DNA from: Flectobacillus sp. BAB-3569
GTDB taxonomy: Bacteria; Bacteroidota; Bacteroidia; Cytophagales; Spirosomataceae
Length of the DNA: 64,000 nt
Assembly: GCF_002270355.1 (NCBI RefSeq)
Contig: NZ_NJFZ01000015.1
Span: forward strand, 62,001-126,000
Direction: 5' to 3'
A model generated the notes under the pieces. That model did not search any database. It was not told the origin of the DNA and saw nothing but the letters and a program-made list of their open reading frames with translations. Positions 4,452 to 23,509 of the stretch are shown here, piece after piece. The position numbers and the translations under genes were made by a program. Position 1 is the stretch's first letter, and each line of letters starts with the position of its first letter.

Positions 4452-7358
4452 GTGAAAAAAACCCTCCAAAATCTATTCATTGCATCATTTGTCCTGATAA
4501 GTTTCGCTTCGATAGGACAATCAAAAAAACTTAATCTACAAGGAACATGGCGATTTGCGATTGATTCCTTGGATAAAGGCGTACAAGAAAAATGGTTTTC
4601 TCAAAAACTAAAAGACAAGGTAAAGTTACCCGGCTCCATGCTTGAAAATGGCAAAGGAAATGCAGTAACACTTCAGACCCAATGGACGGGTAGTATATAT
4701 GATAGTTCGTGGTATTTTAATCCTCGCATGGCAAAGTATCGCCAAGGTCCTCGCCCAAAATTCCCCTTTTGGCTTACTCCTAAAAAACATTACGTAGGCG
4801 GTGCATGGTACCAAAGAGATATTACTATTCCGTCTGACTGGAGAAATCAACGTATTTGGCTAAATCTTGAACGTCCACATTACGAAACGCGCGTGTGGAT
4901 TGATAATCAGGAAATAGGACTGCAAAATTCTCTTTGTGTAGCCCATGTTTATGATTTAACAGGCAAACTCAGTACTGGCAAGCATACGATAACAGTTCGT
5001 GTTGACAATAAGACAAAAGAAATCAACGTAGGAAAGGATTCTCACAGTATTACAGATCACACGCAAGGAAACTGGAATGGCATTGTTGGCAAGATGGAAT
5101 TGGGTACCGAAGGACAGGTGTGGCTTTCAGATGTGCAGGTATACCCGAATGTGAAGGAAAAACTTGCTAAAATAGTCATTCAACTAGAAAATAATCTGCC
5201 AGCTACAGTTTCGGGAAAAATTAACCTTTTTGCTAAAAGTTTTAATGCCACTAAACAACATTCAGTCACACCGCTTGCTGTAGATTTTAAGGCAGAGAGA
5301 GGTAGTAATACCTTAGCTTACACATTACCAATGGGTGACAATTTTCTGACTTGGGATGAATATGTACCTGCTTTGTATAAGTTAAATGTACAAGTTTCTA
5401 CTAAGGAAGGTGTACAATCGGTAAGAGATGTTCAGTTTGGCATGAGAGATTTTGCCATTAATGGAACTCGTTTTGAGATAAATGGACGACCAATATTTTT
5501 GAGAGGAACGGTTGAAAATTGCCAGTTTCCTTTGACTGGATATGCACCAATGGATGTGGCATCTTGGGAGAAAGTCTTCAGAAAAGCCAAATCCTATGGA
5601 CTAAATCACTTCCGTTTTCATTCGTATTGTCCTCCCGAAGCTGCCTTTATTGCTGCCGATTTAGTGGGTATTTATCTACAACCTGAAGGGCCAAGTTGGG
5701 CAAATCACGGTTCGTCTTTGGGCGATGGTCACCCGATTGATCAGTATATCATGGACGAGACCAACCGCATGGCGAAAGCTTATGGTAATTATGCCTCTTT
5801 TTGTATGTTGGCTTACGGCAATGAACCAAGAGGAGGAAAGCAGGTAGATTATTTGACAAAGTTCATTAAATACTGGCAAGCGAAGGACCCTCGTCGTAAA
5901 TATACAGGTGCTTCGGTAGCTATGAGTTGGCCATTAGTTCCTGCAAACGAATATATGATTAAGTCGGGACCACGCGGTTTGCCTTGGGATAAGCTCCCTT
6001 CAAGCAGTGCTGATTTTGGAGATAAGGTCAAAAACTTTACAGTCCCTTACGTTACTCACGAGTTAGGTCAATGGTGTGTATTCCCTAATTTTGATGAAAT
6101 CAAAAAGTACAAAGGTTTGTATGAAGCTCGTAACTATGAACTTTTTCAAGAAGATTTGAAGGATAGAGGAATGGCAGATAGGGGCAAAGATTTCTTTATG
6201 GCTTCTGGAAAATTACAAGCTATTAGTTACAAGCACGAAATGGAAATGGCATTTAGAACGCCACTTTCGGCAGGATTTCAGATGCTCGGACTCAACGACT
6301 ATTCAGGACAAGGAACCGCTTTAGTTGGTTTGCTGGATAGTTTTTGGGAGGAAAAAGGCTATATCGATGCCAAAGAGTTCCGTCAATTTTGTGACTCAAC
6401 AGTTATTTTAACTCGTTTCCCAAAATTTGTTTTTCAGCAAAATGAAAGTATTCAAATACCAATTGAGTTGTTTCATTTTGGACAAAAAGCCTTGTCAAAA
6501 GCAGTAATTGCATGGCAAATTGTTGATTCAGAAGGGAAACCTGTGGAAGCAGGTGAGTTTCAGCCCGCAGATTATGTTATTGGGAATAACCTGTCAGTTG
6601 GAAAAATTACGTTTAATCCTCAGCAAATTAATCAAGCACAAAAACTATTACTTAAAGCGTCTATCAAAGGTTCTTCAATTCAGAACGAGTGGGCGTTTTG
6701 GGTATATCCAAAAACTTTGCCAGCTGTAAAATCAGAGGAAGTTTATTCATGTAATAGTTTAGATGAAAAAGCTTTGCAGATTTTGGAAAAAGGAGGAAAG
6801 GTCTTTTTACAGGCTGCTGGGAAAATTGAAAGGGGGAAAGAAGTCGTTAATTATCTACAACCTGTTTTTTGGAATACCTCATGGTTCAAAATGCGCCCAC
6901 CACATACTTTGGGTTTTGTCTGTGATCCTAAACATCCAGCCTTCCAATCGTTTCCTACAGATTTTCACGCCAACGTGCAGTGGTGGGAATTAGTCAATAA
7001 AACACAGGTGATGCTGTTAGATGAATTTCCAAAAGGATTCAAACCTGTAGTTCAACCCATAGATACTTGGTTTTTGAATAGACCGTTGGGCTTAATTGTG
7101 GAGGCAAAAGTGGGCAAAGGAAAGCTATTGATTTGTAGTGCAGACCTTAGTTGGAATTTAGATACAAGACCCGTAGCTCGCCAATTAGCTTATAGCTTGC
7201 AGCAGTATATGGCCTCTTCGGCGTTTAATCCACAGACATCGGTAGATTTACAGGTAGTGAAAAATCTCTTTGACAAGTCCTACAATCCTAATTTTAATAC
7301 TTACACCAAAGACGCACCAGATGAGTTGAAAGTGAAAAAGAATGGAATGAATCCTTAG
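4452..7358 (+). CDS. Secreted glycoside hydrolase family 2 enzyme
   Basis: A 968-residue protein with a GTG start and a signal peptide ending near residue 23 (SIGQS). A GH2 sugar-binding jelly-roll follows (LNLQGTWRFAID and WIDNQEIG), then an immunoglobulin-like domain, then a TIM barrel opening near RFEINGRPIFLRGT. The acid/base glutamate is E458 in AYGNEPRGG, and E537 in VTHELGQW is the likely nucleophile. Known family activities include beta-galactosidase, beta-glucuronidase and beta-mannosidase; the sequence does not settle which applies. The protein should act in the periplasm or on the cell surface. It stands alone upstream of a SusC/SusD pair, with a strong terminator between them, so any shared role would not rest on one operon. 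Confidence 0.85.
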   Translation: MKKTLQNLFIASFVLISFASIGQSKKLNLQGTWRFAIDSLDKGVQEKWFSQKLKDKVKLPGSMLENGKGNAVTLQTQWTGSIYDSSWYFNPRMAKYRQGPRPKFPFWLTPKKHYVGGAWYQRDITIPSDWRNQRIWLNLERPHYETRVWIDNQEIGLQNSLCVAHVYDLTGKLSTGKHTITVRVDNKTKEINVGKDSHSITDHTQGNWNGIVGKMELGTEGQVWLSDVQVYPNVKEKLAKIVIQLENNLPATVSGKINLFAKSFNATKQHSVTPLAVDFKAERGSNTLAYTLPMGDNFLTWDEYVPALYKLNVQVSTKEGVQSVRDVQFGMRDFAINGTRFEINGRPIFLRGTVENCQFPLTGYAPMDVASWEKVFRKAKSYGLNHFRFHSYCPPEAAFIAADLVGIYLQPEGPSWANHGSSLGDGHPIDQYIMDETNRMAKAYGNYASFCMLAYGNEPRGGKQVDYLTKFIKYWQAKDPRRKYTGASVAMSWPLVPANEYMIKSGPRGLPWDKLPSSSADFGDKVKNFTVPYVTHELGQWCVFPNFDEIKKYKGLYEARNYELFQEDLKDRGMADRGKDFFMASGKLQAISYKHEMEMAFRTPLSAGFQMLGLNDYSGQGTALVGLLDSFWEEKGYIDAKEFRQFCDSTVILTRFPKFVFQQNESIQIPIELFHFGQKALSKAVIAWQIVDSEGKPVEAGEFQPADYVIGNNLSVGKITFNPQQINQAQKLLLKASIKGSSIQNEWAFWVYPKTLPAVKSEEVYSCNSLDEKALQILEKGGKVFLQAAGKIERGKEVVNYLQPVFWNTSWFKMRPPHTLGFVCDPKHPAFQSFPTDFHANVQWWELVNKTQVMLLDEFPKGFKPVVQPIDTWFLNRPLGLIVEAKVGKGKLLICSADLSWNLDTRPVARQLAYSLQQYMASSAFNPQTSVDLQVVKNLFDKSYNPNFNTYTKDAPDELKVKKNGMNP

Positions 7359-7382
7359 GATTAGCGACATATCAAAGTTCTT

Positions 7383-7429
7383 ATTCCTCCAAGTATACGA
7401 CTTCTGTTGTATTCTTGGAGGAATTTTTT
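7383..7429 (+). terminator. Rho-independent terminator after the GH2 gene
   Basis: An 11-base perfect stem (ATTCCTCCAAG / CTTGGAGGAAT) with a 20-base loop is followed by a run of six T. It lies 25 bases after the GH2 stop codon. Confidence 0.85.
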
Positions 7430-7942
7430 GAGGTAAGCATTAAAAGCTAAAACCAATCACCAATAAGCCTATGAAGGTAGTATTTAGTATTGTGTAACTA
7501 TCTGAAAATGAGTTTTTAAGATAATGAATTGAGATGTTTTTAAAAATTATTAATAAAATATTTTAAAAATATATATGGTCTTTTAATTCCTCATTTAACC
7601 TAAATTGCAATTGATTTTATCCTGAAAATTCTACTTTGAAGATATTTTATTGGAATTATCTTGCTTTTGGTGAGTATTTTTCCTGCGAAACTTATTATTA
7701 AAATAATTTACAAGAAATTAATATTTAATAATTTATTTTATTAATTTGGTTGCGAAATCTAACTAAGCCTTTCAATACTAATAGCCAAAAAGATTTCAAA
7801 ACCGCATCAACTTACCATATTTAAACCATGAAAAACAATGAAAGGAGGGAAGCTTTTTCTCCGTAACGCTCTAAAACTATTTATTTCAAATTCGCTCAAT
7901 CAGAGCTCCAATTTTCAATTTTCATCATTTTAATTCCTAACA
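7430..7942 (+). promoter_or_regulatory. Long AT-rich leader of the SusC/SusD operon
   Basis: A gene-free stretch of about 510 bases between the GH2 terminator and the SusC start. It is extremely AT-rich up to about 7760. A 12-codon open frame (7828-7866, MKNNERREAFSP) sits in the presumed 5' leader about 75 bases before the SusC ATG and could be a leader peptide or chance. No anti-sigma/sigma pair or hybrid two-component regulator is adjacent, so control of the pair is not evident from this window. Confidence 0.3.
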
Positions 7943-10900
7943 ATGAAAGCATGTAGAAAAATTTTTACTACGTTATTTGCTACACTCTTGATTTTGACTG
8001 GACAGTTCGTAATGGCTCAGCAGGTAGTCAAAGGAAAGGTCGTGGATAGCAATCAATCAGCCCTAGCAGGCGTAAGTATTTTAGTGAAAGGTACCACAAA
8101 AGGTACAGTAACAGATGGTTCGGGTAATTATACCATTTCAGTTGCTAAAAATGCCTCTTTGATTTTCCAATCATTGGGCTTCGCTACAAAGACCGTTGAA
8201 GTGTCGGGACGTACAACCATCGACGTGGTTTTGGAATCTACTTCTCAAGATCTTGATGAGGTGGTTGTTACGGCCTTAGGTATCAAGCGTGAACAAAAAG
8301 CCCTTGGTTATTCAATTGGTACGGTTTCTAGCAAGGAAATTACCGCTTCGGGTAATACCAACTTTGCTTCGGCATTGTACGGTAAAGTAGCAGGTGTTAA
8401 AATCTCTACGGCGCCAGGTGGTGCAACTTCAGCCGTAAACGTACAAGTACGTGGCGTTAACTCTTTGAATTACAACACACAACCACTTTATGTTGTGGAT
8501 GGTATCGTAATTCGTGACTTTAACCAAGCAGGTGCAAATGGTTTGAATAACGGCGGTTATTGGGATGATCAACGTATTCGTGGTAATGGTATCTTGGATA
8601 TTAACCCTGCCGATATTGCTAGTTTGTCAGTATTGAAAGGTGCATCAGCAACAGCCCTTTACGGTTCTGAAGCTTCGAATGGTGTAATTGTTATTACCAC
8701 AAAATCGGGTGTAAAAGGCAAAGGGTTAGGCGTTGAATTAAACTACACGTATAATCAAGAGCGTGTGGCATTTACGCCTCAATATCAGAATGTATATGGT
8801 CCTGGTTATGACCGTGCTACTAACTTGGCAGTTGGTGCCAACGAGGAAGGTTTTATCACAAATCCTGGTGGTTCTAAGCGAGTGAACTTTAGAGCTTATG
8901 GACAATTTGGTCCTAAGATGGATGGTAGAATGATGCCTTGGTGGGATGGAACTATGCAGTCGTATAGCGCAAAACCAAATAACTTCAATGATTTTTATCA
9001 GACTGGTTATAACTCAACGGTGAACGCTGCTTTCTCAAATGCTACTGACAAAGGTTCTTACCGTTTTTCTTACACAGGTACAGATTATGCTGGTATTATG
9101 CGTGGAAGTAATTTGAAACGTAATACTTTCAACTTAAACTCTTCTGTAAAATTGAGTAATAAAGTTACTGCCGATGTAGTAGTAAGTTATATCAACTCAA
9201 AAGTGCATAACCGTCCTGAGCAAATCAACCGTGTGACAGCTAACTATGGAGGTTTTTACAGCCGTGCGGAGGATATGAACAACTTCTTGAATCATTATCA
9301 AACGTCACAAGGATACAAATATGTACCATACAACGTTCCTGAACGTAATCCTTCAGAAGCTTTCAAATACAACATTCGTGGTGGCGATATTATGGATTTG
9401 TTATGGAATGCTTTGCGTAATAGCGAAGACGAAAACCAAGACCGTGTATTAAGCTCTGTTACCTTAAACTACAAAATCAACAATGAATTTGGTTTGCGTG
9501 GTCGTGTAGGAAATGACTTTACTAGTTTGGGTACTGAAGTAAAGAAATACAACGAATTTCCCGCTTTATTTAACTCAGGAAATAGTACTGGTGAATACCG
9601 TGTAGCTAGTGGTCGTTACTCAATCGTATATGGCGATGCGATGTTGACTTACGCGAAAAAATTGAATACAGATTTTGATTTGTCTGCTTCTGCTGGTGTA
9701 CAAGGTCGTCAGGAAAAATACTATGACCAATCAGTTGGTACAAATGGTGGCTTGGTAATCGAGAACTGGTTTAGTATGAACAACTCTACGAACGTATTGA
9801 ATGCTAGTGCTTCACGTAGAGAAATGATTAAGTTTGCTTACTTGGGTACTTTGAACGCAGCTTATAAAAATATGTTGTTTGTAGAAGGTACAGCTCGTCA
9901 GGAATACTCTTCAACATTGCCAGCAGGCAATAACAGCTATTTCTATACTTCGGTAAACTCTGGTTTTGTATTCTCGGATGCGTTCCAAATGCCGAACTTT
10001 ATGAACTACGGTAAAATCCGTGCTTCTTATGGTGTTGTTGGTAATGCACCCCCTTTGTATGTAGCTAATACAACTTATTCTCAAACGATTTTGCAAACAG
10101 CTTATGGCGCAGTTCCTGCTTTGAGAGCAAGTTCTAGCTATGGTAATGACAATATCAAACCTGAGCAAAAGTTTGAAAATGAATTTGGTTTAGAAACAAA
10201 ATTCTTCAAAAACAAATTAGGTTTTGATGTTACTTACTATAACAGCCGTATCAAAGATCAAATCCTTCAAACGTCTATTCCTACCAGTACAGGTGCTAGT
10301 TCGGTATTGGCAAACGTTGGTGAGCTTCGTTCTTTCGGTTGGGAAGCATCAATTTATGCAACTCCTATCAAAACACGTGATTTCACTTGGAATACTCGTA
10401 TCAATGCTGCTATTAACCGTACAAAAGTTGAGAAGTTGGCAAAAGGTATTCCTCAGTTAGTGGCTTATGATGCTGATCAATCTGCTATCAAAATTGTAGC
10501 TGACGAAGGTGATTATTTAGGAAATATTTACACTCACGTGCGTGCAACAGACTCAAAAGGTAACTTTATTATCTCTGAAGACGGTCTATATACTTTGACT
10601 TCTGACTACAAAAAAGTAGGTAACGTGATGCCGAAATTAGTAGGTGGTTTCTTGAACTCATTTAGCTACAAAAACTTCAGTTTAGACATCAACATGGATT
10701 ACCGTATCGGTGGACAATTGGTTTCAAACCCATTGTTGTATGCAACAGGTGCAGGTATGTTTGAATCAACAATGAAATATCGTGATGCCGAAAACGGTGG
10801 TTTACCATATTATGTTGACGGTAGTGGAAACAACGTATTGTTGTCAAGCCACACAGCAACTGCGCCAAACGGTGGTAAAGTATACCATGATGGTGTATTG

Positions 10901-14828: not shown

Positions 14829-17540
14829 TTACTTAAACTCAATCCATTCAAGGCTACACAAGTCTTTGTTTGGCGTATCTTTTTTGGTAAAGACAAAATA
14901 CAAATCTTGTTTGCCCGTTGGTGATTGAATACTCGCAGTTTGTTCGGCGTACTTATCCCATGCACCGGTTGGGTTATACGACAATGTACTAATCACAGGA
15001 CCTGTTGGCGAACCAGTATGAACTTCCACCGTGGCCGCCTTGTCTCTCGACGAGAATTTGTAGGTTAATTCACTAATACCTTTCAAATCGATATTTTTCA
15101 AGACAAAATATGAGCCATTGTGAATAAAGCCCAAACGCTTGTCTTGACGACCAAGATTATGTAATTCATCGGCTTCGGCACCATAAACACGATTCGGGCG
15201 CAATACCAAAGTCGCAGTTTTACTCAATGCAAGTATCGTTTTGGGTTTTCCTGCTGGAGCTACCAATGAACCTTTATCTGTGTACGAAGCAGTAATTACA
15301 TAGCGACCTTCTTGCTCTTTGCCAACGTGTTCTTTCAAAGATGCTGTTCCTTTTGGCGCAATACGGTTTTCAACAGGCTCTGTACCCAACGAAAGGATAT
15401 ACTTCACCATTTCAGTAGTTTCTTCTCTTGAAAGTTGTGGGTGCGCACTCATTTCACGGTCGCCCCAAAGACCTCCACCACCAGTAATAATCTTATTGGC
15501 TAATTTGGCAATAGCGGTTTTGTCATCACGGTATTTTTTAGCAACCTCCTTAAACGCTGGACCTGCTGAAGGTGCATTGAGTTGGTGACAAGCTTTACAG
15601 TCAGAACCCGCAATCAATGATTTTCCTAAGCTAAATGTAGAAGTCAACTGTTGGTGACCCATTTGTGGTTCTCTACTCACTTTTGGAATATAATTCAAAA
15701 CTACCTTTACACGTTTTGGATCAATCATTTTGTCTTCTTGATCTTTCACATCTACAGCATATTTTAAACTGCCAGCATTTGCCTTAAAGAAGGTACTGTT
15801 TTCGTCTGTAGAAATTGCCACGTCTGGAAGTGTATTTCCTACCTTAATAGTTAAAGTTTGAGTATTGCTCAATCCAGCTTGATCTTTTACGGTTAATGAT
15901 ACTTTATAGATACCATTTTTCTTGAAAGTATAGCTTGGATTGATCTCCGTAGAAGTTTTGTTTGCCTCAAATTTCCACAAATAAGAAAGCTTATCTCCTT
16001 TATCATAGTCAACACTTTGATCAGCTTTAAACTGTACTGTCATAGGTGCCAAGCCAATTGTATCTTGTGTAATCGCTTTTGCCACTGGAGCGCGGTTCCC
16101 ACCATTGAAGTCAATTTTTACTAAACGTGCATCTTCGTTATCTATACCATATACCGAGCCATATTCGAGCATATACATACAACCATCTTGACCAATTTCC
16201 ATATCTACAGGACGACGGAAATCACCCGATTTCGGCATGAATTGCTCCATTGATTGGTAGTTTTGATTTTCATCTAATCTCACGGCAAATACCCAGTTAC
16301 GCATCCAATCATAGATAAAAAGAGATTTATCGTAATAGGATGGCATTTTACTTTTATTCGCAATTTTCGCATCATAATGATACACAGGACCACCCATCGC
16401 ACAACGCCCACCGACACCCAATTCTGGAAACTCAGCCGATTTGTTGTAAGGATACCAAATCATCGCCTTTTGTGTAGGAGGAAGGTTTTTGATACCTGTA
16501 TTGTTTGGCGAATTATTGATCGGAGCGTTTGGCTCAAACAAATCACTTACCTTTTTCGACGCAAAATCATATTGATGATAAGGCTTGCTATCTCCTACAA
16601 AATATGGCCAACCATAGTTACCTGCTTTTTTTGCCTGATTGATTTCGTCATAACCTCTAGGACCTTGCACACCGTCATTTCCTGCATCAGGACCAATTTC
16701 GCCCCAATACACAATCGAAGTTGCTGGGTCTACCGAAATACGGTAAGGATTGCGACAACCCATTACATAGATTTCAGGACGAGTACCAGCAGTGCCTTTT
16801 GGAAAAAGGTTGCCTTCTGGAATAGTATAAGAACCATCCTTTTCGACATGAATACGGAGAATTTTACCACGCAAATCATTGGCATTTCCTGCCGAACGCT
16901 GTGCATCAAACGTAATACGTCCTTCACGAGAATCAATAGGAGCATGTCCACTCGACTCAAACGGAACAGTATTATCACCTGTTGAAATAAATAAGTTGCC
17001 ATGAGCATCCCAAGCCAGTGAGCCTCCTGTGTGCGCACTCACCTCCAAATCAATCGGAAACTCGATAATCGACTGCTCGCTAGCCAAATCAAGATTACTT
17101 TCGCTATCAACTTTGATACGGGAAATACGTTGTCTAGTTTGTTCTTTATCCTGAATCGTATAGAAGAAATACAGATAGTGATTTTCTTTGAAATTAGGGT
17201 CAATTGTCATCCCCAACATCCCATTTAGGTATTTATCGACCGCTTTTACAGGAAAATCATACAACAGACGAGTTTTCTTTTTGACAGGTTCATACACATA
17301 AAATTTACCTGCACGCTCTACAAAAAACACACGACCATCAGGCGCAACTGCCAATTCCATAGGCTCGTTGAGGTCATTAGATAGTACAGTTTTGGTAAAA
17401 CGATTTTCGTCAGGACGGTTTAAGGTATCCACCTTTGTAAAAACCTCAGAAGAATAGGTTGGGGTAGGTGCTGGCTGGTGAATAAATGAGTACAAACCCA
17501 AGGATGCCCCAACAAGCACAGATAGTTTAGAAAGTGACAT
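14829..17540 (-). CDS. Multidomain PQQ sugar dehydrogenase / PKD / cytochrome c / CBM protein
   Basis: A 903-residue secreted protein. After an N-terminal signal or anchor (about residues 1-20) comes a glucose/sorbosone-dehydrogenase beta-propeller (NEPMELAVAPDGRVFFVERA through DMEIGQDGCMYMLEYG, about 55-475). A PKD domain follows (APMTVQFKADQSVDYDKGD, about 490-570). A mono-haem cytochrome c has CKACH as the haem site and a downstream MSAHPQLS axial-ligand region (about 640-725). The C-terminus looks like a CBM6-type jelly roll (GAEADELHNLG to LEWIEFK). The order suggests direct electron transfer from sugar oxidation in the propeller to the attached haem. It is transcribed alone. Confidence 0.85.
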   Translation of the reverse strand: MSLSKLSVLVGASLGLYSFIHQPAPTPTYSSEVFTKVDTLNRPDENRFTKTVLSNDLNEPMELAVAPDGRVFFVERAGKFYVYEPVKKKTRLLYDFPVKAVDKYLNGMLGMTIDPNFKENHYLYFFYTIQDKEQTRQRISRIKVDSESNLDLASEQSIIEFPIDLEVSAHTGGSLAWDAHGNLFISTGDNTVPFESSGHAPIDSREGRITFDAQRSAGNANDLRGKILRIHVEKDGSYTIPEGNLFPKGTAGTRPEIYVMGCRNPYRISVDPATSIVYWGEIGPDAGNDGVQGPRGYDEINQAKKAGNYGWPYFVGDSKPYHQYDFASKKVSDLFEPNAPINNSPNNTGIKNLPPTQKAMIWYPYNKSAEFPELGVGGRCAMGGPVYHYDAKIANKSKMPSYYDKSLFIYDWMRNWVFAVRLDENQNYQSMEQFMPKSGDFRRPVDMEIGQDGCMYMLEYGSVYGIDNEDARLVKIDFNGGNRAPVAKAITQDTIGLAPMTVQFKADQSVDYDKGDKLSYLWKFEANKTSTEINPSYTFKKNGIYKVSLTVKDQAGLSNTQTLTIKVGNTLPDVAISTDENSTFFKANAGSLKYAVDVKDQEDKMIDPKRVKVVLNYIPKVSREPQMGHQQLTSTFSLGKSLIAGSDCKACHQLNAPSAGPAFKEVAKKYRDDKTAIAKLANKIITGGGGLWGDREMSAHPQLSREETTEMVKYILSLGTEPVENRIAPKGTASLKEHVGKEQEGRYVITASYTDKGSLVAPAGKPKTILALSKTATLVLRPNRVYGAEADELHNLGRQDKRLGFIHNGSYFVLKNIDLKGISELTYKFSSRDKAATVEVHTGSPTGPVISTLSYNPTGAWDKYAEQTASIQSPTGKQDLYFVFTKKDTPNKDLCSLEWIEFK

Positions 17541-17780
17541 AGTTATTAATATAGTTAATTAATCTTTAGAAAATGGCCTCAAAAGCCATAAGTTTCTTGG
17601 TCTGGGATTAAAATTATGGTTGTTCGTAAGAAATACTGTCATGCCTTAGGGCACTCCGCGCATTTTCTATCTTTATAGAGTCCAAAAAGTTGGAAATATA
17701 CCCAGTTGGAGGAGGAAAATGTGGTTTTGATGTAGAGACGTAGCACGGCTACGTCTAAATTGCTCTAGTTGGAGATATTC

Positions 17781-17903
17781 TGCCCTCGTTGGAGTCATCT
17801 CCAACGAGAAATGCGTCATCAACCAGTTGAGTTTGATCGACAAATAGAGTAGGGCTGTTGCTTACGCAAGTTTGTTGGAGAAAACTCCAACAAAGGCGAA
17901 AAT
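17781..17903. repeat. 123-bp direct repeat, copy 1
   Basis: The unit contains two perfect 10-base stems: CTCGTTGGAG / CTCCAACGAG and TTTGTTGGAG / CTCCAACAAA. A 123-bp second copy starts at 17916 and differs by only about ten substitutions. Both lie upstream of the McrB-like gene. The 240 bases from 17541 to here hold no gene and only single GTTGGAG fragments. Confidence 0.85.
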
Positions 17904-17915
17904 ACCAAGAATTAT

Positions 17916-18038
17916 TGCCCTCGTTGGAGTTATCTCCAACGAGAAACGCGTCAGCAATCAGTAGAGTTTGATCGGCATATAGAGTATGGCTGTTGCTTAC
18001 GCAAGTTTGTTGGAGAAAACTCCAACAAAGGCGAAAAT
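17916..18038. repeat. 123-bp direct repeat, copy 2
   Basis: The same length and the same two hairpins as copy 1, with a 12-base gap between copies. The GTTGGAG hairpin motif appears again after the restriction genes at 22547-22580, so related structures bracket the island. Confidence 0.85.
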
Positions 18039-18042
18039 ATTT

Positions 18043-18069
18043 ATTACACGTATAGACTATTCGTGTAAT
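18043..18069 (+). promoter_or_regulatory. Inverted repeat upstream of the McrB-like gene
   Basis: ATTACACG / CGTGTAAT arms with an 11-base spacer lie about 80 bases before the start codon, followed by an AT-rich stretch. This could be an operator for the restriction genes or a terminator blocking read-in. The sequence alone does not decide. Confidence 0.4.
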
Positions 18070-18147
18070 ATTATTTTTTATTTGTAGATTGAAGACCGTT
18101 TTACATTATAAAACATTTTTTATAACTATTATAGGACTAGAAGAATT

Positions 18148-20670
18148 ATGAAAAAAGGACAGCTGAGTGAAAAAGAGTTTAGTTATCAAGACTTTATTGG
18201 AAAATATTCTGATATGAATTATGTATTAGTAGTGAAAGATCAAGAATATCCGAATTCGAACTTATTTACCATCCTTTATAACGATAAAGGAAAAATATAT
18301 GATATTTTGGACGAGGAGATGGAAAAAGTTTTGGCAACAAAAGCCCTACATCAAACACCAGATTTGGAACAAAAATATTCCCCACAACAGCTATTAAAGA
18401 TATCATCTGGTACTATAATAAAAAATGAAAAGTATACTGATAACTCTACATTCCCTAAATGTATTACATTTTACACGAATATACATGATTTTGGACCGAA
18501 TGAGATTATTGAAATATTTGAAGGAAAAGTTACTGAAGAAAATGGAGTTTTTGAGTTAAAGCAAAAAGCTTTACACTCATTAGTTAAAGATTGTTATATC
18601 CAATCTAGTAACTCTTTTTTTATTTTAGAGAATGATGCTCTAATAGGGCCATTCAAAGTAAAAAATACCGATACTTCAGGAGAGTTTATTGTGGAAAAGA
18701 GTCTATGGAAACAATTTGGAAAGTATAAGTTTGAAATAGATTCATTTATTGAGTTTAGGGTGAATGATATAACAAGACGTATACATATCCCAAAAGTTAA
18801 TGAATTGCAAATTATTGAGAAATTAGATTTTGTTACTGATAATGATTTAATCGATGAGTTTGAACTTGATATTTACAGCCACCCTGAACAATATTCTGAG
18901 ATAAATACAAAAGTATTGTTGAGTACATTGAAAGAGGTTATTTCATCCAATTATGTCCAAAGTACTCAGCAAAGTGAGAGAATTATAAGGCTTTTGAAAA
19001 AAGCGGAAACCAAAGTGATTTCCAAAATAGATATAGGAAAAGTTTTTCCAGAAATTACTGAACTAAAGACTGAAATTGACAATTTGAAACTCGAAAAACT
19101 TTCTCTTCAAAGTGAGCTGGAGAAAGTTCTTGATCAAAAGAACAGAACAGAGAATGAAATTTTATTAGTTGATACAGACTTGAAAAGTTTGAGAGATGAA
19201 ATTACACATATTGAGAAATTTATAGAGGAAAAAGCAAAAGAGCAAAAAACTAACCTTGAATCAGAGATAAAGAGGCTTGAACAGCAGAAGGCAAGTCTTG
19301 ATACAGAAATTGAAATAGAAAGGAATAAAAAAGAGGAAAAGATTAAAAATCTTGAAAATCTTATCAAATACTTGGAGGAGAAGGAAAATTCTTTGAAGAG
19401 TGGGATAAAAACATTACAAGATGAGTTTACGAATGAGCAAAAATCGGCTCATTTAAAGTTGAAGGAGTTATTAATGCAAAATCAACACTATAATATACTT
19501 AGTGGAAGAGAAATATTTGGAGAATCTCATACTCCATTGAATAGTTTTACATCTTTCCAAATTGTAAAATCAACAGGAGAAAATCTTAGTAAATTTGAAA
19601 AATACAAAAATCTAAAAGAAAATATTCTTACAATTTTAAACAAAAACAATAGAAGAATAGATTCTCATTTTTTAGATAATATACTTCTTTCAATCCATCA
19701 GAATACTCTTACATTATTTGCAGGTTTACCAGGAACAGGTAAAACATCCTTAGTAAGGTTGCTAATCAATATTTTGACTCCTCGAGAGAGAATTAGGGAG
19801 GTTGCTGTAAGTAGAGGATGGACATCTCAAAAAGATTTAATTGGATTTTTAAACCCTCTTTCAAAATTGTTTCATGCGTCACCCACAAACCTTTATAATT
19901 TACTCAAACAATTAGATTGGGAGAGAGAGAGAGAGATCTTTATGGACTCTCCGTTAGCATATGTGTTATTGGACGAGGCAAACCTTAGCCCGCTTGAACA
20001 CTATTGGTCGGTTTTTTACAATTTAACTGATAATTATGCAAGTAAGAATAACTATTTGAAAATTAATCTAGGAGATTCCGAAGTTCTTGAATATCCGAAT
20101 AATCTTAGGTTTATTGGAACGATCAATTATGACCAGACAACAGAAGAGCTTTCCCCACGAGTTATTGATAGAACTAATATTATAAGAATGGATAATAATA
20201 AGTCTTTGGATATAAATAGGCTTACAAGTATGGACATAAGTAATATTAATTTATCATTCAGAGACTGTATAGATATATTTGGTTTAATTGATTTCTCTGA
20301 TCAGCATGATATATCAATGGATGAGACTTTCGATAGAGAGTTTAATGATATAAAGAGAAAATTTGAAGAGCTAAAAATATATATTAGCCCGCGAGTACAA
20401 ATAAGTATAAAGCAATATTGCAAAATTGCTAATACAATAATGTATGAAAAAAACAAACCACTTGACTATTGTATTAGTCAACGACTTCTTCCATTAATTA
20501 GAGTTCAGGGCTCATCTGCAAAAGCAAAGTTGAACGAATTAAAAGATATATTAGACAAGAATAAATATGATATATCTTCTAGGATTTTGACAGACATAAT
20601 TCAGAGAGGAGAAGAGGGTGAAGTTTTTCAAGATAATTTCAACTATTTTTTGACCCTATCAAATGTTTAA
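18148..20670 (+). CDS. McrB-like AAA+ ATPase with long central coiled coil (type IV restriction)
   Basis: An 840-residue protein. Residues 1-290 form an N-terminal region of no recognised family, where target-recognition domains usually sit. Residues about 305-445 are a long, charged coiled coil rich in E, K and L. The C-terminal AAA+ motor carries Walker A GLPGTGKT (526-533), Walker B VLLDEAN (606-612) and a sensor segment IGTINYDQTTEELSPRVIDR. The last is typical of the McrB branch, which in the classical system uses GTP and drives the McrC nuclease. The next gene overlaps by 8 bases and encodes the nuclease partner. The coiled coil recalls the CoCoNuT group of type IV systems, but no CoCoNuT helicase or RNase gene is nearby. 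Base composition is visibly AT-richer than the flanks. Confidence 0.85.
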   Translation: MKKGQLSEKEFSYQDFIGKYSDMNYVLVVKDQEYPNSNLFTILYNDKGKIYDILDEEMEKVLATKALHQTPDLEQKYSPQQLLKISSGTIIKNEKYTDNSTFPKCITFYTNIHDFGPNEIIEIFEGKVTEENGVFELKQKALHSLVKDCYIQSSNSFFILENDALIGPFKVKNTDTSGEFIVEKSLWKQFGKYKFEIDSFIEFRVNDITRRIHIPKVNELQIIEKLDFVTDNDLIDEFELDIYSHPEQYSEINTKVLLSTLKEVISSNYVQSTQQSERIIRLLKKAETKVISKIDIGKVFPEITELKTEIDNLKLEKLSLQSELEKVLDQKNRTENEILLVDTDLKSLRDEITHIEKFIEEKAKEQKTNLESEIKRLEQQKASLDTEIEIERNKKEEKIKNLENLIKYLEEKENSLKSGIKTLQDEFTNEQKSAHLKLKELLMQNQHYNILSGREIFGESHTPLNSFTSFQIVKSTGENLSKFEKYKNLKENILTILNKNNRRIDSHFLDNILLSIHQNTLTLFAGLPGTGKTSLVRLLINILTPRERIREVAVSRGWTSQKDLIGFLNPLSKLFHASPTNLYNLLKQLDWEREREIFMDSPLAYVLLDEANLSPLEHYWSVFYNLTDNYASKNNYLKINLGDSEVLEYPNNLRFIGTINYDQTTEELSPRVIDRTNIIRMDNNKSLDINRLTSMDISNINLSFRDCIDIFGLIDFSDQHDISMDETFDREFNDIKRKFEELKIYISPRVQISIKQYCKIANTIMYEKNKPLDYCISQRLLPLIRVQGSSAKAKLNELKDILDKNKYDISSRILTDIIQRGEEGEVFQDNFNYFLTLSNV

Positions 20671-22317
20671 ACTATATCAAGTTGTCAACAAGGTAAGAGA
20701 GGAAGTTTTACCTGTGAATGAGTTGTATACTGTGAATGAGCTTGGAGAGTATGAATTTTATTATAACAATTATAGTAAAATTGATATTGATAGCGTTTCT
20801 ATTTTCATTGAAGATTTAGAGATTGAAAGAAAAAATTATATTGTCACTGAAAATTCAATATACTCAAAAGAAGCAAATAGATTTTTTCAAGACTATTTTG
20901 GTTTTGCATCATTAAATATTAACAATGAAGTTTTCAAATTTAATATTCTTATTGAAAAATTTAATATTGTCGAAATAGAGAACATACTTTTATTTTTGTG
21001 GAATTGCGAAAATAAACTTTTTGAAAATTTTTTTTCTAAAAGTACAATTAATTCTAAGATATTAAATAGTGGCTATAATTATGAATACACTTCAAAACTA
21101 TTGACTTTCGCCAATAGTTTTTATGATTTTTTCAGAGACTTTACCCTGCTTTTTGTAATACGCCTTATTCTGTGCTTAGAAATACAATTAGTACAATAGA
21201 TTACTCCCCTAGAGATATTTCAGAATATTCCATTAACTGGATTTTAGGCAATATTGATTCTGTGATTTTTGATGAATCTTATGCAGGATTACCTGATTCA
21301 ATTTGTATTGGAAATAAATATGGAATACTGGATAGAATTGATACTGAAAAAAGTGTAGAAAGCTTTAGTACTTATGAAAATAAAATTCTTTTGGGTGCTT
21401 TTATAAAGATGCTTTCAAATCTAAAGCATCTTAAAAAGATAATAGACTCTTCAATAGATACTTATACATATGGGTATGGAAATTATGTTGATTTTAGAGA
21501 TTTAAAAAAAACTCCCTTTTTAAAGCTTTTCAAGGATGCTAATTCCTTGGAAAAACAAATCGAAGGTCTCTATAACAGATATTGTAATATTTTTGTTGGC
21601 GTGGAACCCAAGGTAGAAAAACCAAGAGTTACTAACATTTTTCTTCAAAATAGTCTCTACAGAGAAGCGTTCAGAAAAATTCAAGAAACTTTTAATTACA
21701 AGTTTGTATTTGATGGTGAATTAAGTTTGTTAAATATTAAAAGGTTGAGTACACTTTATGAGTTCTATAATTTTCATCTAATTATCAATTTTTTCAAAAA
21801 TAAATTGAATATCGATTTATTCGAGGTAAGAGAACAATCAAATCGACAAGATAATTTTATAGATAGAGTTTCATTCAAAAGCGACACAATATCAATTGAT
21901 ATTTATTACAATTATCACTACCCAAGTATTTTAACCAATTTAGTGAGAATAGACAAGAAAAGAGGTACATATTATACTCCTGATTATATAATTAATATTA
22001 GAAATGAATATGTGGATACAACCATCATTTTAGACGCAAAATATTCGAAATTAGAGACAGTAAGATCTCGTTATTTACCAGATTGTATATTCAAATATAT
22101 TTTGAACACTGGATTTAAAGATGAAAAATATCGAAAAATTGATTATCTTATTCTTCTATATTCGGGTGAAACTTATGAACTTACTGTCGAAAATAATGAG
22201 TTTTCACCACAAGTATTTATAATTCCTTCAAAACCTAGGTTTGAGTATTTCTTGGAAGCTCAGTTGAACACAATTATTGAAAAAGAAATACCAAACTCAT
22301 TTTACAAAAAAAAATAG
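20663..22317 (+). pseudogene. McrC-like DUF2357/PD-(D/E)XK nuclease, frameshifted at a T run
   Basis: Two overlapping frames (20663-21199 and an open frame continuing to 22317) together encode one protein of about 551 residues. The first frame reads to TLLFVIRLI and stops. One extra T in the T5 run at 21150-21154 would give TLLFCNTPYSVLRNTIS and continue to the end. The C-terminal half shows the nuclease core: D441 in YYTPDYIINI, then D458-A-K460 in IILDAKYSK, as in PDDEXK_7 nucleases paired with DUF2357 and McrB-like ATPases. It overlaps the ATPase gene by 8 bases. As read, the second half would need internal initiation, for example at the GTG at 21172. A sequencing error is the simplest explanation; real inactivation or programmed slippage remain possible. 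Confidence 0.8.
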
Positions 22318-22546
22318 ATTTATAAAAAGTGGAACTGGGTAAGAATCTAAATTAATACAAAAGATCAACTTGACATGTTGGGGATATCTAATCTGGATGC
22401 GATTTTTCTATTATATTAGTAGTTCCTAAACATACATTGTAACTTCTCTTTGATGATTAGTTAGCTTTATTGAATAGTCTGTCTGTTTAAATTCATCCTG
22501 CAGATTTAATTTGGAGGAATAAAGTTATGACTTATAATGTAGTTTT

Positions 22547-22580
22547 TCTACTTTGTTGGAGTTTTCTCCGACAAAGTAGA
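22547..22580. repeat. GTTGGAG hairpin closing the restriction island
   Basis: A 15-base stem with one mismatch (TCTACTTTGTTGGAG / CTCCGACAAAGTAGA) around TTTT. The core GTTGGAG...CTCC is shared with the two 123-bp repeats before the island. It sits just past the end of xerD and may also serve as its terminator. The 230 bases before it (22318-22546) hold nothing recognisable. Confidence 0.6.
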
Positions 22581-22597
22581 AAATATTCTACTATTCA

Positions 22598-23509
22598 CTA
22601 CCTAAACCCTCTATTCCTCGGATGGAAATCTACAATGGTTTGTTGTAGATAGGCTCGGTCGAGGTGTGTGTATATTTCGGTGGTTGTAATGCTTGAATGT
22701 CCCAACATTTCTTGGATAGCCCTTAAATCTGCGCCACCTTCAATCAAATGGGTTGCAAAAGAATGCCGAAAGGTGTGTGGACTGATATTTTTCTGAATAC
22801 CTGCCATCATGGCTAGATCTTTGATAATCAAAAACACCATCACTCTGGTAAGGTTTTTCCCTCGGCGATTTAAAAAAAGATGGTCTGAAAAATCAGTCTG
22901 AATTGGCTGATGCTTTCTGATTTCTTCCATGTAAATCTGGGTGTAGTGCATGGCATCTCTGCCGATTGGCACTAACCTTACTTTATCTCCTTTTCCTCGA
23001 ACTCTGATAAAACCAATGTCAAAATAGCACTCTGAAATTTTTAAGTCTACCAGTTCTGACACGCGAAGCCCTGAACTGTACAATACTTCTAGCATCGCTC
23101 TGTTGCGAGTACCTTCAGGTGTGGAGAGGTCGATGGTCTCCAGCATTTGTACAATTTCGGGATAGCTGAGCGTAGAAGGTAATTTCCTGCCAACTTTGGG
23201 CGAGGCTATCAGAAGTGTTGGGTCTTGTTTGATAACGTCCTCTACTTCAAGGTATTTATAGAAAGCTTTGAGTCCCGACAACATACGGGCTTGAGAAGTG
23301 GCTTCTAGTCCTAATTCGTCGATATACTGAAAAAAGCTGAAGATATGCTTGTCGCTAACCTCCGTTACTGACGGGGCGTCTTCGTGAGTGATTTCGAGAT
23401 ATTCCCAGAATTTGCTAACGTCACGGATATACGCCTCAATGGAGTTCTCTGAAAGTGCCCTTTCGAGTGTAAGGTAGTTTTTGAAGTTTTTTATATAAAT
23501 TTGCCACAT
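22598..23509 (-). CDS. xerD: Tyrosine recombinase XerD
   Basis: A 303-residue tyrosine recombinase of normal Xer length. The N-terminal SAM-like core-binding domain covers residues 1-90. The catalytic domain has the first arginine in SSGLRVSELVDL, then HTFRHSFATHL (H-x-x-R), LGHSSITTTEIYTH with the second His, and the nucleophilic Tyr. With XerC it resolves chromosome dimers at dif. The divergent neighbour aroQ (191-base gap) is an arrangement often seen in this phylum, so this is the housekeeping enzyme and not the integrase of the adjacent restriction island, although it borders it. Confidence 0.9.
   Translation of the reverse strand: MWQIYIKNFKNYLTLERALSENSIEAYIRDVSKFWEYLEITHEDAPSVTEVSDKHIFSFFQYIDELGLEATSQARMLSGLKAFYKYLEVEDVIKQDPTLLIASPKVGRKLPSTLSYPEIVQMLETIDLSTPEGTRNRAMLEVLYSSGLRVSELVDLKISECYFDIGFIRVRGKGDKVRLVPIGRDAMHYTQIYMEEIRKHQPIQTDFSDHLFLNRRGKNLTRVMVFLIIKDLAMMAGIQKNISPHTFRHSFATHLIEGGADLRAIQEMLGHSSITTTEIYTHLDRAYLQQTIVDFHPRNRGFR

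Follow-up and report, generated by a model that had tools for sequence, protein, structure and literature searches.

An NxD signature defines a branch of the McrB GTPases, and the coiled-coil clade of this branch comprises the systems named CoCoNuTs (Bell et al. 2024, PMC11090510). According to the sections of that study available to us, RNA targeting by CoCoNuTs is a prediction, most of these systems occur in Bacillota or Pseudomonadota, with types other than I-B being widespread, and characterisation of an NxD McrB GTPase was still lacking when it was published. Here we analyse a McrB/McrC-type gene pair in Flectobacillus sp. BAB-3569, within a 64,000-nt stretch of contig NZ_NJFZ01000015.1 (positions 62,001 to 126,000; hereafter the window). 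The pair spans 18148-22317 and has GTTGGAG hairpins on either side. It is probably a horizontally acquired, two-gene NxD coiled-coil McrBC system with the layout of a Type I-C CoCoNuT, located in a variable slot and flanked by hairpins of a separate family that resembles repetitive extragenic palindromic (REP) sequences.

Type I-C CoCoNuTs are described in the available sections of Bell et al. (PMC11090510) as having only two genes, for CnuB, with an OB (CSD-like) domain, often a YTH-like domain, a coiled coil and an NxD GTPase, and for CnuC, with DUF2357 and PD-(D/E)XK domains. The pair in the window resembles this layout, with the OB and YTH-like domains and DUF2357 assigned tentatively, but its host belongs to the Bacteroidota and its mcrC frame is broken; the likeness is one of layout, drawn independently of the published tree. 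McrBC of E. coli K-12 also pairs a GTPase with a McrC nuclease carrying a DAK motif, but its McrB (459 aa) has NTAD (NxxD) where the window has NxD, and lacks the long N-terminal region and the coiled coil. The candidate family PDC-M26A of PADLOC shares the coiled coil and GTPase and matches the McrB-like protein of the window with E = 7.5e-27, although the best-matching stretch (residues 304-626) leaves out the N-terminal domain. The same family matches all nine further McrB-like homologues scanned. The term "PDC-M26" was absent from the 15 listed papers out of 1,561 retrieved, and "PDC" was absent from the PADLOC 2021 main text by term search (PMC8565338).

The McrB-like GTPase

The first open reading frame (ORF) of the pair (18148-20670, + strand, 840 aa) encodes a CnuB/McrB-like GTPase. 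From its N-terminus, the protein is predicted to consist of an OB-like domain (residues about 25-115, by fold search of the predicted structure), a PUA/YTH-like domain (about 112-215, as aligned with the homologue from locus L040), a helical linker, a coiled coil (about 302-433, by a simple heptad heuristic) and an AAA+ GTPase domain with Walker A motif GLPGTGKT (526), Walker B residues D609/E610 and the NxD signature N660-Y-D662. These motifs and heptads bear out an initial annotation of this DNA, in which a McrB-type AAA+ ATPase with a 140-residue coiled coil had been recognised. The NxD signature occurs in 18/18 McrB-like sequences compared, the window's included and four of them from other layouts (G053, G025 and two from L007), whereas E. 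coli McrB has NTAD. N660 and D662, together with G167-P168 of the N-terminal domain, are kept in all nine aligned McrB-like rows, again counting the window. Type I-A is marked by a helical insert that separates Walker B from NxD; no long insert was seen here in comparison with the other aligned rows, with 51 residues from D609 to N660.

Pfam returned only AAA matches for this protein, all below threshold, and the A3 profile matched chiefly Lon, ClpB and other AAA+ chains in the PDB, McrB (6hz4) appearing only at E 0.003. In our own tree of the GTPases, which is without labelled CnuB references, the window groups with G092 with a support of 0.991. The tree left out L009 (G208), L041, L047 (a near-duplicate of L046), L048 and L039 (the same plasmid as L037).

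The initial annotation had proposed that the N-terminal region is a new recognition domain. Fold search of the predicted structure instead pointed to an OB-like fold at residues 24-116 and, in the next domain of the L040 homologue, to a YTH/PUA-like fold, both with modest scores. The best fold rows include YTH domains in complexes with m6A RNA, OB folds of the RNA exosome and the DNA binders SSB and RPA; such kinship is no proof of function. Because an OB-like domain followed by a PUA/YTH-like domain matches the layout described for Type I-C CoCoNuTs in the available sections of Bell et al. (PMC11090510), the region is probably not novel, and the proposal of a new domain is not upheld by these models. 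Sequence searches of the PDB gave no usable relative: the N-domain profile matched nine different sequences with E of 10 or less, the best at E 0.33, and the single sequence reached a best E of 0.052. Pfam searches of 11 N-terminal domains gave six families, each in one of the 11, which we took as chance. The best of these rows, PF01873 (eIF-5/eIF-2B) at E 0.0019, was treated in this way, as was PF18144 (SMODS) on the window's own domain (E 0.0033; 18.1 bits, cut-off 26.5).

The McrC-like partner and its broken frame

The CnuC/McrC-like partner is encoded in two pieces on the + strand. The first (20663-21199, 178 aa) covers the N-terminal part and overlaps the end of the mcrB-like ORF by 8 nt; the second (21172-22317, 381 aa) lies in a different frame and retains the motif TPDY...ILDAKY. 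The pattern PD...D(A/S)K is found in 10/10 aligned McrC-like rows, those of the window and nine other partners. When E. coli McrC is aligned, DAK is present, with PR instead of PD at the first column, and the McrC-like homologues carry an N-terminal region that E. coli McrC is without. Neither piece gave a match of note in Pfam, NCBIfam or PADLOC. The domain assignment of the partner rests on this alignment and on its homologue from L013, which matched PDDEXK_7 above the cut-off (E = 1e-5, 26.1 bits against 22.1) and DUF2357 just below it (E = 1.1e-4, 22.0 bits against 23.3); Pfam found no match in two other McrC homologues or in that of L011. A PD-(D/E)XK partner, as put forward in the initial annotation, is thus supported by motif and homology.

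A McrC-like ORF lies directly 3' of the McrB-like ORF in 11 distinct loci, namely the window, L011, L012 (whose McrC start is over-extended in the ORF list), L013, L037 (identical to L039), L038, L040, L042, L043, L045 and L046. This count left out L044 (at a contig end), L041 and L047, while L016, L017 and L007 were not counted as pairs. The McrC-like frame is unbroken in 10/10 counted loci other than the window, and intact copies therefore exist elsewhere; L041, among the loci left out, has its McrB split over two overlapping frames. The single break in the window may mean that the local copy of the cassette is inactive, or it may be an assembly error. That the local copy is a decaying pseudogene without present function is quite possible, if somewhat short of an even chance: the uninterrupted frames of the other loci favour it, but the draft assembly of 183 contigs may contain an erroneous indel, the 840 codons of mcrB are uninterrupted, and the two pieces of mcrC are still long and conserved.

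Distribution and probable horizontal acquisition

The cassette ORFs have a GC content of 0.298 (mcrB-like), 0.246 and 0.271 (partner pieces), compared with 0.404-0.424 in three adjacent genes, as expected from the earlier description of a visibly AT-rich two-gene cassette. Values of 0.266-0.311 were obtained for the four 1-kb segments from 18001 to 22000, and the next lowest segment of the window, at 7001-8000, has 0.312.

McrB-like matches at 1e-10 were found in 5/98 relatives besides the own genome, those in G053 and G025 being confined to the GTPase part and having other layouts, and none was found at this threshold in four congeners, with nine candidates scored in each. Among 394 other genomes drawn from the class, three matched at 1e-20, with two candidates scored in each, and neither of the two of these that were examined (L016 and L017) has an adjoining McrC. 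Plasmids, viral contigs and relatives from the same order also carry related McrBC-like pairs. A search with the GTPase part gave 66 plasmid records at 1e-10, of which 41 cover 80%. With the full McrB protein, 286 plasmid records match at 1e-5, a count that probably includes chance coiled-coil matches. One of the GTPase matches, a 110,713-bp Acinetobacter plasmid, recurs at the same length in the viral-contig collection, and, of five further viral-contig scans, one contributed five more McrB-like loci, three gave only contigs already included and one gave none; the McrB-like protein had no match at 1e-5 in the phages collection. Spread over plasmids and viral contigs, low GC and absence from congeners together support horizontal acquisition, and with it the earlier suggestion of an acquired type IV (McrBC-like) module.

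Several of these loci differ in arrangement. Related coiled-coil NxD McrB genes without a McrC neighbour are located at L016:6881-9583 and L017:5988-8720, in two genomes of one other genus. On a Klebsiella plasmid (L038:2334-8812), a McrBC-like pair has a tyrosine recombinase on one side and a gene with a TIR domain on the other. At L007:7599-11820, a coiled-coil partner separates two tandem NxD GTPases that have putative membrane segments at their N-termini, an arrangement that resembles the CoCoPALM systems named in the available sections of Bell et al. (PMC11090510).

The site of the cassette

The cassette lies between a 903-aa gene on its left (14829-17540, - strand) and a gene on its right (22598-23509, - strand) that Pfam confirmed as a tyrosine recombinase; the name xerD comes from the initial annotation. 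The xerD-like gene is present in 5/5 genomes of the genus compared, with 74-100% DNA identity. In the congeners G001 and G002, the same two neighbours flank another block of genes, of about 5.2 and 4.3 kb, and in G003 and G004 this gene order was not seen in the stretches compared. The block in G002 includes two response-regulator-type genes with syntenic counterparts in G001. Since one of these regulators has no counterpart closer than 41% identity in the window's genome, a block of the G001/G002 type looks replaced or lost there. This suggests that the stretch separating the 903-aa gene from the xerD-like gene is a variable site. The alternative small gene block, with its two response-regulator-type genes, is found at L032:2356-7026 and L033:3064-5989.

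The GTTGGAG hairpins

On the left of the cassette are two direct 124-nt copies that are 94% identical and start 135 nt apart (17781-17904 and 17916-18039, both + strand), each a REP-like doublet of two GTTGGAG hairpins and a spacer. A single related hairpin lies on the right, at 22544-22583, with 18-nt arms that are 94% complementary, 14 nt past the recombinase stop codon; in sequence comparison, this third relative spans 36 nt at 22552-22587 with 81% identity. The cassette is thus bracketed by related hairpins, as first described. With at most one mismatch allowed, five places in the window match the pattern GTTGGAG-N4-CTCC(A/G)AC, for a total of 10 strand matches, and 100 shuffles gave none. 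An Rfam search of 17500-22700 found no match up to E 0.1.

Dispersal of these repeats was observed directly. The 261-nt left repeat region matches 40 places in the genome it comes from, its own position counted, and 16, 37, 60 and 0 places in G001, G002, G004 and G003, respectively. Pattern hairpins occupy 17 distinct places in the own genome, five in the window and 12 elsewhere, 15 of the 17 having a perfect stem; the congeners have 22 (G002), 32 (G004) and one each (G001 and G003), and a backward-pattern control gave zero in all five genomes. Dispersed copies and inverted doublets are marks of REP and REPIN sequences, and these repeats show both. The left site carries a related unit even where the cassette is missing: a single degenerate one in G001 (88/126 columns identical) and a partial one, its first half, in G002 (67/87), both above 200 shuffles. 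The hairpin on the right, beyond the xerD-like gene, is absent in G001 and G002; it could have been inserted later or could be a structure resembling a terminator.

It had been proposed that the hairpins are scars or signals of the island's movement. As ends or signals of a mobile element carrying the McrBC pair, they would explain the related hairpins on both sides, as well as the fact that G001 and G002 have neither the right hairpin nor a second left doublet at this site. A Y1-transposase gene of G004 (PF01797, 23.4 bits, cut-off 23), which is RAYT-like (REP-associated tyrosine transposase), sits among GTTGGAG repeats, and hairpins of this family can therefore plausibly move. Set against this are the dispersal of the family, the single left unit without the cassette in G001 and G002, and an asymmetric arrangement, with two doublets on the left and one hairpin on the right. 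No target duplication was seen, the flanks sharing no direct repeat of at least 8 nt apart from the hairpin and two AT-rich words of 8 nt. In addition, two RAYT-like matches of the own genome are only 29% and 31% identical to the G004 gene, and the repeat unit in the flanks of its two RAYT-like loci (L078 and L081) is not above shuffles. Among eight RAYT-like loci of the genus, the unit exceeds shuffles in the flanks of one, that of G004 (L076/L070; for example 37/43 nt, 200 shuffles). Mobile-element ends are thus very improbable. Because the hairpins are dispersed in the genome and G001 and G002, which are without the cassette, have a related unit at the left site, we regard them as a separate dispersed REP-like family that is no part of the McrBC-like system. 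The proposed link to the island's movement gives way on the left side, where relatives have the unit without the island, and is not refuted on the right.

A related precedent is found in subclass 2.6 of the RAYT (TnpA-REP) proteins, which in the available sections of the source (PMC6006769) are mostly from Bacteroidetes, are without the GT[AG]G consensus and have atypical flanking structures with copies elsewhere. Hairpins around RAYT-like genes in Bacteroidetes and genomic copies elsewhere are likewise seen here, but no close RAYT was found in the window's own genome, and the comparison with the G004 gene is made at a level above subclass. Other hairpin families surround four further RAYT-like genes (one in G000, two in G001 and one in G002). 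Together with that of G004 (L070:3400-5000, G004:C12), these genes, at L077 (G001:C14), L079 (G002:C35), L081 (G000:C99) and L082 (G001:C4), each lie amid their own hairpin family, of the GTTGGAG, TCAGTGTC or GTGCTGGAT type. A GCGTC/GACGC word occurs near the hairpins at L070 and L077. As a lead only, 2/5 hairpins in the window and 3/3 in L070 have a CGTC tag no more than 16 nt away; CGTC-tagged repeats were reported in 2013 as being without a dedicated transposase, with no transposase gene flanked by them, in the available sections of that report (PMC3733652).

Weighing against our reading of the locus as a whole are the modest fold scores behind the OB and PUA/YTH-like assignments, and the link of the right-hand hairpin to the cassette, which the relatives do not refute, this hairpin being missing in G001 and G002.

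Proposed function

Sequence motifs and gene order were observed directly, and N-domain sensing of nucleic acid, GTP-driven activation and cleavage are what we infer. By analogy with McrBC, the GTPase would assemble into a ring, to be engaged and stimulated by the McrC-like subunit. Nucleic acid may be sensed by the OB-like and PUA/YTH-like domains of the N-terminus, perhaps as modified RNA in line with the prediction for CoCoNuTs, the coiled coil could transmit this signal or oligomerise, and GTP hydrolysis would drive the PD-(D/E)XK nuclease to cut. A specific version, which we consider unlikely, is a working Type I-C-like CoCoNuT in which the tandem domains read modified RNA and thereby activate the McrC nuclease and the NxD GTPase; candidate targets would be, for example, methylated tRNA, tmRNA or phage transcripts. 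DNA-directed type IV restriction, with sensing of modified DNA, is a serious contender, although we would not bet on it. The RNA-bound YTH domains and RNA-exosome OB folds among the best fold rows speak against it, but a fold is not a function, and rows for the DNA binders SSB and RPA appear beside them.

This cassette probably adds a member from Bacteroidota, with a horizontal setting, to the CoCoNuT-type McrBC systems. The tempting link between a defence island and its flanking hairpins is weakened by related REP-like repeats, which occur at the left site where the island is missing. With intact relatives such as that in G092, whether the target is RNA or DNA becomes a testable question, and if the system does work by reading RNA, it would offer a tractable McrBC of the NxD branch from Bacteroidota.
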